Shown one piece after another: positions 51,012 to 55,035 of a DNA stretch of 64,000 nucleotides (position 1 is the first letter of the stretch; every line of letters begins with the position of its first letter). The notes under the pieces are model-generated. The model ran no database searches and was not told the DNA's origin. It worked only from the letters and a program-made list of their open reading frames with translations. Made by a program: the position numbers and the translations under genes. Origin of the DNA: Flavobacteriaceae bacterium (GTDB lineage Bacteria; Bacteroidota; Bacteroidia; Flavobacteriales; Flavobacteriaceae). Location of the stretch: assembly GCA_016649715.1 (NCBI GenBank), contig JAENXC010000001.1, positions 124,001 to 188,000 of the forward strand, read 5' to 3'.

Positions 51012-52538
51012 TTATTTGGGAGAATCCATCAAAAATTCCTTTACCGAATTCACATATGGATACATTGCCACATCTTCTATGAAAACAGGAACAATGGCAC
51101 GAATTTCATCATACATTTTTTTGGTTTCGGACGAAACTTGATCCTGAACTTTTAAGTATTCTATTGCCTGAACAATGGTTATAAGCTCAATGGAAACAAC
51201 TTCAAAAGCGTTTTCAATTACCTTTTTCGCGATGAGCGCGGCGTTAGTGCCCATACTCACAATATCCTGATTGTCGTTGTTGTTCGGGATGCTGTGCACG
51301 TACATTGGGTTGCTGAGCATTTGGCTTTCGGCCGTGGTGGAAGTGGCGGTGAACTGTACGCCCTGCATTCCAAAATTCAACCCCAGTTTTCCCAAATTAA
51401 CAAAAGGCGGAAGAATGTCGTTCAATTTTGAATTCAACAAATAGTTAAGTTGGCGCTCGGAAAGCATCGTCATTTTTGCAACAACTATTTTCAGCTTGTC
51501 CATTTCAAGGGAAACATAATCGCCGTGGAAATTTCCGCCGTGATAAACGTTTCGTTTTTCAACATCGACAATTGGGTTGTCGTTGGCCGAATTCACTTCC
51601 TCTATCAATATTTTTTCAACCGTGTTCAGCGTGTCCAAAACGGGACCCAAAATTTGTGGCACACAGCGCAGGGAGTAATATTCCTGCACTTTTTCCTCAA
51701 AAACAACCACGTCTTTTGAACCATTATATAAGTGATGTTCGCGTTTTCTGGTAAGTTTGCTGTCTTTTAAATGGACGCGCATCATTTCAGCAATTTTGCG
51801 CTGGCCCTTGTGTTTTTTCGTTTCGTTAAGCTCCAAGGAAAGATGGTCGTCATACGCTTTCACAATTTCATTTATGGCCGATGATGCTTTGATCATCCAT
51901 TGCATAATCCGTCTTGTGTAAAGCACGTTTACCACACCAATACCTGTCATTACTGAGGTTCCGTTCATCAAGGCCAACCCTTCGCGGAGTTCCACTTTTA
52001 TGGGCTGAAGGTTTTCCAGTTTGAAAACTTCTTCGGTGTTTTTGCGGTCGCCTTTGTAAAAAACTTCGCCTTCGCCTATCAACACCAATGCTAAATGGGC
52101 AAGTTGCACCAAATCGCCACTGGCGCCCACGCCGCCGTGTTCATAAATTAGGGGGATTATGTTTTTGTTCAGCAATTCGCCCATCAATTTAATGACGGAA
52201 GGATGAACACCACTGTTGCCAAGGCTCAGCGTGTTCAACCGTGCAAGCATCGCAGCGCGGACGTATTGAGCCGGAATCGGGTTTCCCGTTCCCGAGGAAT
52301 GGCTGCGGATAAGGTTGTACTGTAACTGAATCCTTTCGCTGTCCTTAATTTTATACTGCGCCATGGGGCCGAAACCCGTGTTGACACCATAAATGGTCTT
52401 GTTTTTTGAAAATTCCTTCAGAAAATCGAAACTGTTTTGGACCCTTTCTATAATATCTTTGTGAAGCTGGACAGGATCACTTTTGAAAATTATTTGCTCA
52501 AAATCAGATATTTCCAGTTTTCCTTTTAATGTTGGCAT
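51012..52538 (-). CDS. Tyrosine ammonia-lyase (aromatic amino acid lyase family)
   Basis: A 508-residue enzyme of the HAL/PAL/TAL family. The MIO cofactor forms from Ala139-Ser140-Gly141 in HGGVGASGDLVQ. The catalytic Tyr is in YGVNTGFGPMA (Tyr50), and QYNLIRSHSSGTG carries the substrate-selecting Ser-His. Over long stretches, including FHGDYVSLEMDKLKIV and NPMYVHSIPNNNDNQD, it reads nearly like the well-studied F. johnsoniae tyrosine ammonia-lyase as I remember it. It would convert L-tyrosine to 4-coumarate, the aryl starter of flexirubin. It is the first minus-strand gene of the cluster, with its own promoter. Confidence 0.92.
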   Translation of the reverse strand: MPTLKGKLEISDFEQIIFKSDPVQLHKDIIERVQNSFDFLKEFSKNKTIYGVNTGFGPMAQYKIKDSERIQLQYNLIRSHSSGTGNPIPAQYVRAAMLARLNTLSLGNSGVHPSVIKLMGELLNKNIIPLIYEHGGVGASGDLVQLAHLALVLIGEGEVFYKGDRKNTEEVFKLENLQPIKVELREGLALMNGTSVMTGIGVVNVLYTRRIMQWMIKASSAINEIVKAYDDHLSLELNETKKHKGQRKIAEMMRVHLKDSKLTRKREHHLYNGSKDVVVFEEKVQEYYSLRCVPQILGPVLDTLNTVEKILIEEVNSANDNPIVDVEKRNVYHGGNFHGDYVSLEMDKLKIVVAKMTMLSERQLNYLLNSKLNDILPPFVNLGKLGLNFGMQGVQFTATSTTAESQMLSNPMYVHSIPNNNDNQDIVSMGTNAALIAKKVIENAFEVVSIELITIVQAIEYLKVQDQVSSETKKMYDEIRAIVPVFIEDVAMYPYVNSVKEFLMDSPK

Positions 52539-52569
52539 TTATTGTTGAATAAAATATTTTAATAATTTT

Positions 52570-52597
52570 TTGTCTTAAAATAATTTGATTACTTTAG
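52570..52597 (+). promoter_or_regulatory. Possible promoter of the FAD enzyme gene
   Basis: TTG at 52570 and TACTTTAG at 52590 (one mismatch to TAnnTTTG) are 17 bases apart and lie 43 bases before the ATG at 52640. It overlaps the divergent TAL promoter, so the two directions may compete. Confidence 0.3.
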
Positions 52598-52601
52598 ACT
52601 G

Positions 52602-52609
52602 CAAATTTA
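52602..52609 (-). promoter_or_regulatory. -7 box of the tyrosine ammonia-lyase gene and pigment operon
   Basis: TAAATTTG, an exact TAnnTTTG match, lies 64 bases before the TAL start and would give a leader of about 55-60 nt. It is the only obvious minus-strand promoter at the head of the cluster. A -33 TTG at the right distance is not clear. Confidence 0.5.
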
Positions 52610-52639
52610 GAATTTTTTAACAATCTATATCTTAATAAT

Positions 52640-53884
52640 ATGAATGATATTACTGTTGATGTGTTAATTATCGGTGCCGGACCTTCTGGTTGTGTAGCAT
52701 CCGCCTATTTAAAAAACAACGGGATTAGCTCCAAAGTGGTTGAAAAAAGCAAGTTCCCTCGTTTCGTGATTGGCGAAAGCCTTTTGCCCCGCTGTATGGA
52801 TCATTTTGAGGAAACGGAACTTTTGGACTGTTTGATGGCCAAGAAATACGAAATAAAATCAGGCGCGCGATTTTTAAAGGGCGATGTTGTCTGCAATTTC
52901 GATTTCAGCAAAAAACATACCCCTGGCTGGGACTATACGTGGCAAGTTCCACGGGCCGATTTTGACAATACCCTTGCAAAAGAAATCGTGAAAAAAGGCG
53001 TGGATCTCTCCTTTGAACACGAGGTTACTGCAGTTCGGTTTGACAAAAATGGACATTCCACCACAACAGTAAAAGATGAAAAAGGCAACGAATATAATGT
53101 TAAAGCAAAATTTATCATTGATAGCAGTGGCTACGGGCGGGTTTTGCCGCGTTTGCTGGATTTGGAAAAACCCTCTTCCCTAGATGCACACTCATCAATA
53201 TTTACCCATATAAGCGAGCCCAACCGTCCCGAAGGGGTGGAAGGAACCCTCATTACTTTCGATGTGGTAATGGAGAAAGTTTGGCTTTGGGTCATTCCTT
53301 TTTCAAACGGAAACACGAGCATCGGCTTTGCAGGGCCCACTGAATTCATTGAATCTTTTAAAGGTACAAATGCCGAAAGACTGCGCGAAATGCTGAAAAT
53401 CTCCGATTATTATTACGATAGATTGAAGGATCAGGAATTTCTTTTTGAGCCGCACATCATTAAAAATTATTCCAAAGCGGTGACTAAGCTCTGCGGAAAA
53501 GGCTTTGCCCTTACGGGAAACAGTTCCGAATTCCTGGACCCCATTTTTTCCTCGGGCGTAACCTTTGCCACTGAATCTGGGCTGAAAGCGGCCAAATTGA
53601 TAACCAAGGAATTAAAAGGCGAAAAGGTTGACTGGGAGAAGGATTACACAAGCTATATTTTGAAAGGTGTGGATGTCTTCAGGACCTACGTGGACGAATG
53701 GTACACGGGTAACCTTCAAAAAATATTTTTCCACCGTCCCGAGAATCCTGTGGTAAAAGAGCAAATTTGCGCTGTGCTTTCCGGCTATGTTTGGGACGAT
53801 ACCAATCCTTTTGTAAAAAACCACAACCGCCTTGTCAAGACGGTTGTAAAGGTTATTGATTTGGAAAATGAGCGGGCGAACTAA
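52640..53884 (+). CDS. FAD-dependent halogenase/monooxygenase-like enzyme
   Basis: A 414-residue flavoprotein of the tryptophan-halogenase/geranylgeranyl-reductase group. The FAD fold is LIIGAGPSGCVASAYL (about residues 9-24), followed by KFPRFVIGESLLPRC. The W-x-W-x-I-P-like motif typical of the family is VWLWVIPF (about 213). The second FAD block is CGKGFALTGNSSEFLDPIFSSG. Flexirubins are often hydroxylated or chlorinated on the aryl ring, so ring oxidation or halogenation is the likely role. It is the only plus-strand member, divergent from TAL. Confidence 0.85.
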   Translation: MNDITVDVLIIGAGPSGCVASAYLKNNGISSKVVEKSKFPRFVIGESLLPRCMDHFEETELLDCLMAKKYEIKSGARFLKGDVVCNFDFSKKHTPGWDYTWQVPRADFDNTLAKEIVKKGVDLSFEHEVTAVRFDKNGHSTTTVKDEKGNEYNVKAKFIIDSSGYGRVLPRLLDLEKPSSLDAHSSIFTHISEPNRPEGVEGTLITFDVVMEKVWLWVIPFSNGNTSIGFAGPTEFIESFKGTNAERLREMLKISDYYYDRLKDQEFLFEPHIIKNYSKAVTKLCGKGFALTGNSSEFLDPIFSSGVTFATESGLKAAKLITKELKGEKVDWEKDYTSYILKGVDVFRTYVDEWYTGNLQKIFFHRPENPVVKEQICAVLSGYVWDDTNPFVKNHNRLVKTVVKVIDLENERAN

Positions 53885-54640: not shown

Positions 54641-54780
54641 AAAAATCCCAACCTTTTTCAAGATTGGGATTCACATTAGGAAACGACAGCAACACAAAAA
54701 CCTATAGGCTTTTGTGTTGCTGCCACCCACGGTCACGTGTGCCAATAAGTTTTTGATAATTTGGAGAAATTGTAGAAAAT
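54641..54780 (-). ncRNA. Tandem structured RNA, unit A
   Basis: A 140-nt unit on the minus strand. In RNA order it has a conserved unpaired leader with TTTCTCCAAATTATC, a short hairpin around CACGTG, an 18-bp stem (54707-54724 with 54685-54702, loop TATA), a spacer, and a 12-bp intrinsic terminator (54644-54671) with a T run. G-U pairs in the long stem and in the terminator are paired only on the minus strand, which sets the orientation. It repeats unit B at high identity outside the long stem. No promoter is seen inside the unit; it is probably read from the tRNA-Gln promoter. Confidence 0.72.
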
Positions 54781-54921
54781 AAAAAACCTCAAACTTTTTC
54801 AAGATTGAGATATGTGAGAGGAAACGGCATAAGTATAAAAGCTGGAAGCTTTTATACTTATGCCACCCACAGTCACGTGGGCCAACAAGTTTTTGATAAT
54901 TTGGAGAAATTGAAGCAAAAG
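54781..54921 (-). ncRNA. Tandem structured RNA, unit B
   Basis: A 141-nt unit directly downstream of the tRNA-Gln terminator. The long stem is 18 bp without mismatch (54847-54864 with 54826-54843, 3-nt loop). Against unit A, six base pairs are changed on both sides at once and two differ only as G-U versus G-C, so pairing is conserved while sequence is not. A short hairpin (CCCAC/GTGGG, 54866-54881) precedes it, and a terminator with one mismatch (54786-54811, then six Ts) ends it. I know no name for it; the Flavo-1 RNA family of flavobacteria is one candidate. Confidence 0.72.
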
Positions 54922-54954
54922 AAAAAATCCCAACCTTTTTCAAGATTGAGATTT
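54922..54954 (-). terminator. Terminator of tRNA-Gln
   Basis: A 13-bp stem (54925-54937 with 54942-54954; loop GAAA in the RNA), with G-U pairs only on the minus strand, is followed by a T run. It lies nine bases after the tRNA 3' end. The same terminator sequence ends RNA units A and B. Confidence 0.85.
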
Positions 54955-54962
54955 CGTTTTTG

Positions 54963-55035
54963 TTGGCCCACTAGGGCTCGAACCTAGACTCTTCTGTACC
55001 AAAAACAGACGTGTTGCCAGTTACACCATGGGCCA
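54963..55035 (-). tRNA. tRNA-Gln (anticodon UUG)
   Basis: A 73-nt cloverleaf on the minus strand. The acceptor stem is TGGCCCA/TGGGCCA, the D arm starts GGTGTAACTGGC, and the anticodon stem TCTGT/ACAGA holds the loop TTTTGGT with anticodon TTG. The T arm is CTAGG TTCGAGC CCTAG, and the discriminator is A. The 3' CCA is not encoded, as is common in this phylum. Confidence 0.97.

Follow-up and report, generated by a model that had tools for sequence, protein, structure and literature searches.

The two head-to-tail units that follow a tRNA-Gln gene on contig JAENXC010000001.1 of a Flavobacteriaceae bacterium belong to a structured repeat family, here named E, which occurs in Aequorivita (the genus of the window, the 64,000-nucleotide stretch of DNA under analysis) and in nine other genera of Flavobacteriaceae. 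Elements of this family are roughly 100 nt long and lie behind genes, in the sense direction of those genes. Their 5' part often begins with an antitarget, which repeats a stretch of the upstream gene (the target) in inverted orientation; next comes a short stem, P1, with a 3' strand that continues into a mostly constant GGTGG. Their 3' part consists of a long hairpin of free sequence, P2, a mostly constant CNGTTNCC-like end and, in most cases, a duplicate of the tail of the upstream gene. Our leading explanation, which we hold tentatively and with somewhat less than even confidence, is that E is transcribed, that fold-back template switching both creates it and multiplies it on the spot, and that selection maintains its RNA hairpin.

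Results

Reading of the sequence, ARAGORN and Rfam (RF00005) all place tRNA-Gln(ttg) directly upstream of its terminator, T0, and of the two units, which with T0 span 54641-54954 on the minus strand (Table 1); their head-to-tail arrangement is as originally predicted. The leaders of the two units are nearly alike, and the stems differ. The P2 arms are GGCATAAGTATAAAAGCT/AGCTTTTATACTTATGCC around the loop TCC in unit 1 and GGCAGCAACACAAAAGCC/GGTTTTTGTGTTGCTGTC around TATA in unit 2. Inspection by eye bears out the predicted pattern of 18-bp stems in which six pairs (5, 6, 8, 9, 11 and 18 of the stem) have both partners changed and two more are G-C in one unit and G-U in the other. The stem G-U pairs were also correctly assigned to the minus strand, where the fold of unit 2 has two of them and the plus-strand fold none. 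Each unit is followed by a terminator, as had been claimed, and that of unit 2 is close to T0, but that of unit 1 has diverged from the tRNA's. A 90-aa frame (54671-54943, minus strand) spans both units. Repeat and model searches of the window's genome (3.4 Mb, 71 contigs) found no E units beyond these two. Elsewhere in the window (51012-53884), a 508-aa frame that we take to be an aromatic amino acid ammonia-lyase adjoins a second frame, presumably encoding an FAD-dependent halogenase-like protein.

Table 1. Features of the tRNA-Gln array in the window (position 1 is the first nucleotide of the window)
Feature	Position	Strand	Basis
tRNA-Gln, anticodon ttg, host gene of the array	54962..55035	-	ARAGORN; Rfam RF00005
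Target GTGGGCCAACAA, tRNA-Gln 3' acceptor strand and trailer	54960..54971	-	12-nt longest inverted match to unit 1 5' arm; reached by 0/200 shuffles
T0, tRNA-Gln intrinsic terminator	54922..54953	-	Sequence; repeat match; hairpin in folds
Unit 1 (leader, E element, terminator copy)	54781..54921	-	Sequence; folding; family-model match 54813-54893
Unit 1 antitarget TTGTTGGCCCAC, inverted copy of tRNA 3' end; its CCCAC part doubles as P1 5' strand	54877..54888	-	Inverted-match tests
Unit 1 P1 3' strand GTGGG, then TGG	54866..54870	-	Alignments
Unit 1 P2, 18-bp stem, 3-nt loop	54826..54864	-	Repeat match; folding
Unit 1 conserved tail GTTTCC, 3' of P2	54820..54825	-	Alignments
Unit 1 terminator copy T1	54781..54812	-	Sequence; hairpin in fold
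Unit 2 (leader, E element, terminator copy)	54641..54780	-	Sequence; folding; family-model match 54672-54753
Unit 2 antitarget TTATTGGCACAC, partly decayed, 2 changes relative to unit 1	54737..54748	-	Sequence
Unit 2 P2, 18-bp stem with two G-U pairs, 4-nt loop	54685..54724	-	Folding; model search
Terminator copy T2, 97% identity to T0 over 31 nt	54641..54671	-	Repeat match

Rfam, searched at the gathering threshold and loosely, returned only the tRNA in the window and, Flavo-1 included, no family for either unit; the loose matches (best 0.064) were taken as chance. The Flavo-1 model (RF01705) matched neither the window nor the other ten loci scanned with it. A single Flavo-1 RNA was found among 11 loci (L094:29-110, minus strand, 54.3 bits), roughly 90 nt beyond E unit 2 of a 5S array in genome G089, and the sequence that ends locus L092 resembles it. 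Likewise, rtT RNA (RF00391) is absent from the Rfam matches in the window and 11 loci.

Within Aequorivita, a DNA search gave matches in 18 of 28 genomes, many of them to the terminator only. Reading of the loci found an intact E behind tRNA-Gln in six congeners (G000, G004, G015, G018, G022, G027), only decayed units in three (G001, G020, G021), and none within a few hundred bases behind tRNA-Gln and its terminator in five (G003, G006, G007, G011, G024), the remaining genomes being unread or disrupted at this site. G018 carries a second, decayed unit, and decayed units have lost the palindrome. A strict pattern scan of the species collection returned 11 stretches, of which three Aequorivita records were read and taken as members.

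In two further congeners, G008 and G019, a matching tRNA-Gln 3' end stands in a locus without the tRNA gene (L014 and L011), where it adjoins a recombinase-like gene, presumably encoding a tyrosine recombinase; because of this neighbour, tRNA-Gln seems to be an integration site. The E elements might accordingly be remnants of attachment sites left by integrative elements that use the tRNA-Gln 3' end, and those behind displaced tRNA 3'-end pieces in three other genomes (G231 of genus g205, G422 of g198, G687 of g73) would fit such an origin. We nevertheless regard it as very improbable: family E also stands behind 5S and protein genes, and the spacer that separates its CCYAC arm from its GTRGG arm is of variable length (about 4-8 nt by the structure-guided alignment), unlike a recombinase core.

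Model and P1 pattern searches placed E in nine further genera (g62, g63, g73, g74, g78, g194, g198, g205, g206). The family model matched nine of 397 family genomes at an E-value of 0.02 or better, one of which (G382) was rejected on reading; all five g73 genomes had a family match at 1.1e-8 or better. The P1 pattern matched 27 of the 397 genomes, the same number as a reversed control pattern, and its loci were accepted only where, on reading, an inverted copy was seen or P2 was followed by the E end (L124, L130, L136, L137, L143). Seven gene contexts emerged: tRNA-Gln (or a displaced 3'-end piece of it), 5S rRNA and five protein genes, with E in the sense direction in all of them. Beyond the genus, E follows tRNA-Gln in g62, g63, g73, g78, g194 and g198. 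The TMEM260-like gene that adjoins the tRNA in the window can be recognised by eye beside several of the loci in other genera (with a translation check at L130), and since this neighbour recurs, the tRNA-Gln site looks like the same place across genera. E follows 5S rRNA in G005 and G023 of the genus and in G089 and G304 of g63, the G304 contig starting inside the 5S, within the target. It follows an SDR gene in g73 and g74, Pyr_redox, TPM-domain and CMD-family genes in g73, and a 215-aa protein gene, which we take to encode a phosphopantetheinyl transferase, in g206 (G232). This last locus (L096), accepted as a member, is the one that adds the genus g206 and its gene context; it has the tail copy, and the antitarget is absent. 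The GGTGG and CNGTT motifs are common to the ten genera, with the 5S units of g63 and G231 as exceptions. A palindromic repeat copied to many unrelated places had been named as a finding that would undo the original prediction; E is indeed present behind 5S and five protein genes, but always at a gene end and in the sense direction.

The most accepted sites in any one genome are four (G687). An order-wide search of 281 genomes led to acceptance of the window's own units only, two weak matches (L151, L152) being rejected on reading, and since the large searches used strict filters, they do not prove E absent from the genomes searched. Further weak matches were rejected on reading (L050, L052-L055, L057-L061, L070, L080-L084, L095, L109, L119, L168, L169, L174, L175); L056, L065, L068, L074 and matches without a locus were left unread. 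In phages, the only matches were to the tRNA-Gln of four Flavobacterium phage records, and the plasmids searched contained none. Viral contigs gave 37 pattern matches, which were not read individually, and one weak family-model match (L210, E-value 0.023) that was taken as chance.

The 5' arm of E is, at many loci though not at every one, the reverse complement of a stretch of the upstream gene that lies 33-77 nt before it; in the window, TTGTTGGCCCAC answers to GTGGGCCAACAA of tRNA-Gln. The inverted match is 12 nt long in the window, 8-12 nt at the tRNA loci of an 18-locus test, 11-12 nt at the 5S of G023 and G089, and 12-16 nt, exact, at most SDR loci. An exact match of at least 9 nt to the arm's own upstream 200 nt was found at 18 of 20 loci, against one of 206 pairings with foreign contexts; these 20 were the loci known at the time, without G304 5S and G220, and most of the exceptions below were found later. 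The antitarget also tracks variation in its host. Among 13 tRNA-context loci, the target reads GTGGGCC in 11 and GTAGGCC in two (G304, G104), and in the latter both strands of P1 follow, as CCTAC and GTAGG; 5S antitargets vary in step with 5S variation. Taken locus by locus, the inverted copy beat every shuffle at nine of 18 loci in one test and seven of 16 in another. By the per-locus match tests it is weak or tied at the tRNA of G304, the 5S of G023, Pyr_redox of G099 and G309 and CMD of G687, and there is no clear copy at Pyr_redox of G687, TPM of G688, the tRNA of G686, G220 (7 nt) and G232. We rejected a direct copy of the tRNA 5' end as the source of E on the ground that 5S and SDR units carry inverted copies, and a tRNA primer-binding site on the ground that the match in the window enters the gene's trailer, not CCA.

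Minimum-energy folds of read-through RNA formed the target:antitarget helix in all four cases tried (tRNA-T0-E1 in the window, SDR end-E1 in G309 and G100, 5S-E1 in G023), and G-U pairs occur in host pairing too (G004 TTGGTCCAC, G099 GTATAT). These folds, the tracking of host sequence, the tolerance of sense-strand G-U and the constant sense orientation would all suit an RNA that acts in cis. In read-through transcripts its antitarget would pair with the host RNA (the tRNA 3' strand, 5S or a coding end) or, where that stretch is folded or translated, with the GTRGG of P1, thereby marking or trapping faulty or over-long transcripts. We consider this unlikely, since the hosts share no evident function, the antitarget is weak or missing at several loci, and E is absent or decayed at tRNA-Gln in eight of the congeners read; the folds, moreover, ignore co-transcriptional folding and tRNA modification.

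The copy of the upstream gene's tail on the 3' side of E was present at 15 of the 17 loci tested. At 14 of 16 loci, the DNA behind E matches the stretch ahead of it more closely than any of 100 shuffles does, and at ten of these 14 the best tail copy begins 10-16 nt past a marker placed in each unit's CNGTT end. In G232, a 158-nt copy of the gene end follows E somewhat further on. What is copied differs with the host: tRNA-Gln loci repeat the terminator, 5S loci the 5S tail, and protein genes their last codons. No tail copy was found by the shuffle measure at G304 tRNA and G089 5S, and the copy in G686 is doubtful. In the arrays read closely the target is not repeated, because the repeat unit starts behind it. 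G005 has two arrays, one directly behind 5S and the other interrupted by frames that presumably encode transposases. Behind tRNA-Gln in G104 (L093:1600-1990) there are about nine head-to-tail repeats of roughly 45 bp each, composed of the P2 3' arm, the CNGTT end and a terminator-like stretch; on the minus strand of L099, beyond E, repeats of roughly 190 bp keep the P2 3' arm only, several of them with GTTCTCGACTGCGCTCGAACTGAC.

Fold z-scores of units 1 and 2 are -7.0 and -6.5 on the minus strand and -7.1 and -4.7 on the plus strand, and as both strands score strongly, energy alone does not name the one that pairs. In a first model, built from seven intact genus units, both partners had changed in nine pairs, and 96.5% of cells were paired. 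In a wider alignment (A5; 62 rows, comprising 59 units and three opposite-strand artefacts, with G232 outside it), all 16 modelled P2 pairs change on both sides. It contains 265 double-change cells, against a mean of 80 after shuffling and 51-107 with partners slid, the artefacts being included in this count. With the artefacts excluded, 57 distinct units show 61 G-U, six A-C and 79 other departures from Watson-Crick pairing in P2, part of the last being an internal loop of SDR units. Counted once per genus and column, there are 25 G-U against six A-C (p 0.0009), in alignments fitted to structure; such structure-guided alignments were used because MAFFT misaligned long units. In the SDR units of L097 and L136, the middle of P2 is not perfectly helical but opens into an internal loop of G-A/A-G type. 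In 29 folded hairpins, the sense strand has 42 G-U pairs and the opposite strand 16; 18 units favour sense, six the opposite strand and five tie. Since a sense-strand G-U would be A-C on the other strand, pairing is more likely on the sense strand, and the excess of G-U over A-C speaks in favour of a minus-strand RNA in the window, although strand-biased C-to-T mutation could mimic it.

The covariance-model search proposed with the original prediction found homologues with paired substitutions, and these, together with the sense-strand tolerance of G-U, support the central claim of a selected RNA structure. The argument first given for it, that compensation between the two copies is strong evidence by itself, was too strong: template switching in replication can produce such double changes in one step, according to PMC8794818, so that compensation between copies alone is no proof of selection.

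The same source describes perfect stems being created and restored, and loops being inverted, by template switching. The loops of unit 1 in the window (TCC) and of G022 (GGA) are reverse complements, an inversion that rests on 3 nt. All of E could on this basis be neutral DNA, a set of short inverted repeats that stay similar through template switching and have no RNA role at all, and the inverse copying of neighbouring sequence and the nearly identical leaders beside different stems in the window agree with this. The excess of sense-strand G-U, the sharing of GGTGG and CNGTT among ten genera (exceptions aside), the constant orientation and the loss of the palindrome in decayed units argue the other way, and we judge a purely neutral origin improbable.

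It had also been suggested that the units are free small RNAs, tandem transcripts with their own terminators that act on other messages through an unpaired CUCC in the leader. Their strong structure, their covariation and the terminator after each window unit are what such RNAs would display. The main flavobacterial promoter has a -7 box of consensus TAnnTTTG (from PMC9723704), and no sense-strand box of this main type lies within 70 nt of the P1 loop at any of 20 loci; independent tandem small RNAs would have a promoter of their own for each unit. CUCC is not conserved among the units read in other genomes, the host-specific antitarget is the only conserved unpaired seed-like stretch that we saw, the visible pairing partner is the unit's own upstream gene, and presence is patchy. 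The proposed pairing with ribosome-binding sites therefore finds no backing, and free action on other messages is, in our estimate, a poor prospect.

Discussion

Fold-back copying of a read-through transcribed repeat, the explanation we favour, can be put as follows. E would be transcribed solely by read-through from its host gene. During replication, the growing strand may fold back at hairpins and copy a piece of the host gene backwards, creating the antitarget; fold-back would also re-match the arms of P2 after mutation, and a return downstream of the target would duplicate the tail, or the tail and E together, so that arrays grow in place. Selection would maintain the sense-strand RNA hairpin, or the host transcript would tolerate it, and in read-through RNA the antitarget could pair with the host sequence. 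Fold-back copying is the most likely maker of antitarget and arrays because the inverted copies, the re-matched stems and the reverse-complemented loop match template switching as reported in PMC8794818, and selection on sense-strand RNA is the most likely reason why the hairpins persist. That template switching made E, that E is transcribed and has moved to new genes, and that a host may benefit from it are points that we infer. No clean pair of empty and filled sites was found, which counts against the explanation.

A bolder reading, possible but on the unlikely side, is that E belongs to a new, self-retargeting class of gene-end repeats. By copying a stretch of the host backwards into its 5' arm and repeating the gene's tail behind itself, it would become complementary to its own host transcript. 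In one form of this reading E would be a small mobile element propagated through fold-back copying, in the other a cis-acting RNA able to sense whether the host transcript is folded or translated.

Comparison with known systems sets E apart from each of them. Like Flavo-1 RNA, it is a structured element of Bacteroidetes, but the Flavo-1 model does not match it. In Escherichia coli, rtT RNA consists of tandem repeats behind tyrT in which the tRNA 3' end recurs in direct orientation. The window units likewise stand in tandem behind a tRNA and repeat part of the 3' region of its gene; unlike rtT, they carry the tRNA piece in inverted form, and what they copy directly is the terminator, not the 3' end. 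REP/REPIN elements are short palindromic repeats with a fixed motif at the hairpin foot, associated with Y1 transposases (RAYT) and present in many scattered copies. E shares the short hairpin and the fixed motif at its foot, whereas its stem sequence is free, the gene tail is duplicated, and instead of many scattered copies per genome there are two at one place in the window's genome and at most four sites elsewhere (G687). Template-switch hairpin mutations resemble E in their inverted copies, double changes and loop inversion; in the part of PMC8794818 available, they are described for stems of RNA genes, chiefly rRNA, and not for an array-forming repeat family with fixed motifs. Searches of open-access full texts for tandem small RNAs of flavobacteria at tRNA-Gln, for Flavo-1, rtT/tyrT and quasipalindromes, and for inverted copies behind tRNA or 5S listed no paper that describes such an element in its title or the opening of its abstract.

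Family E provides a natural series of hairpin stems that turn over within one genus and yet stay paired, that occur in arrays, and for which the host gene serves as an outside yardstick. It thereby makes testable what share of paired changes in RNA stems comes from selection and what share from one-step template switching, and it shows that compensation between copies does not on its own prove an RNA to be functional. Should the antitarget work, a 3' element would have in it an easy means of addressing whichever transcript it lies behind.
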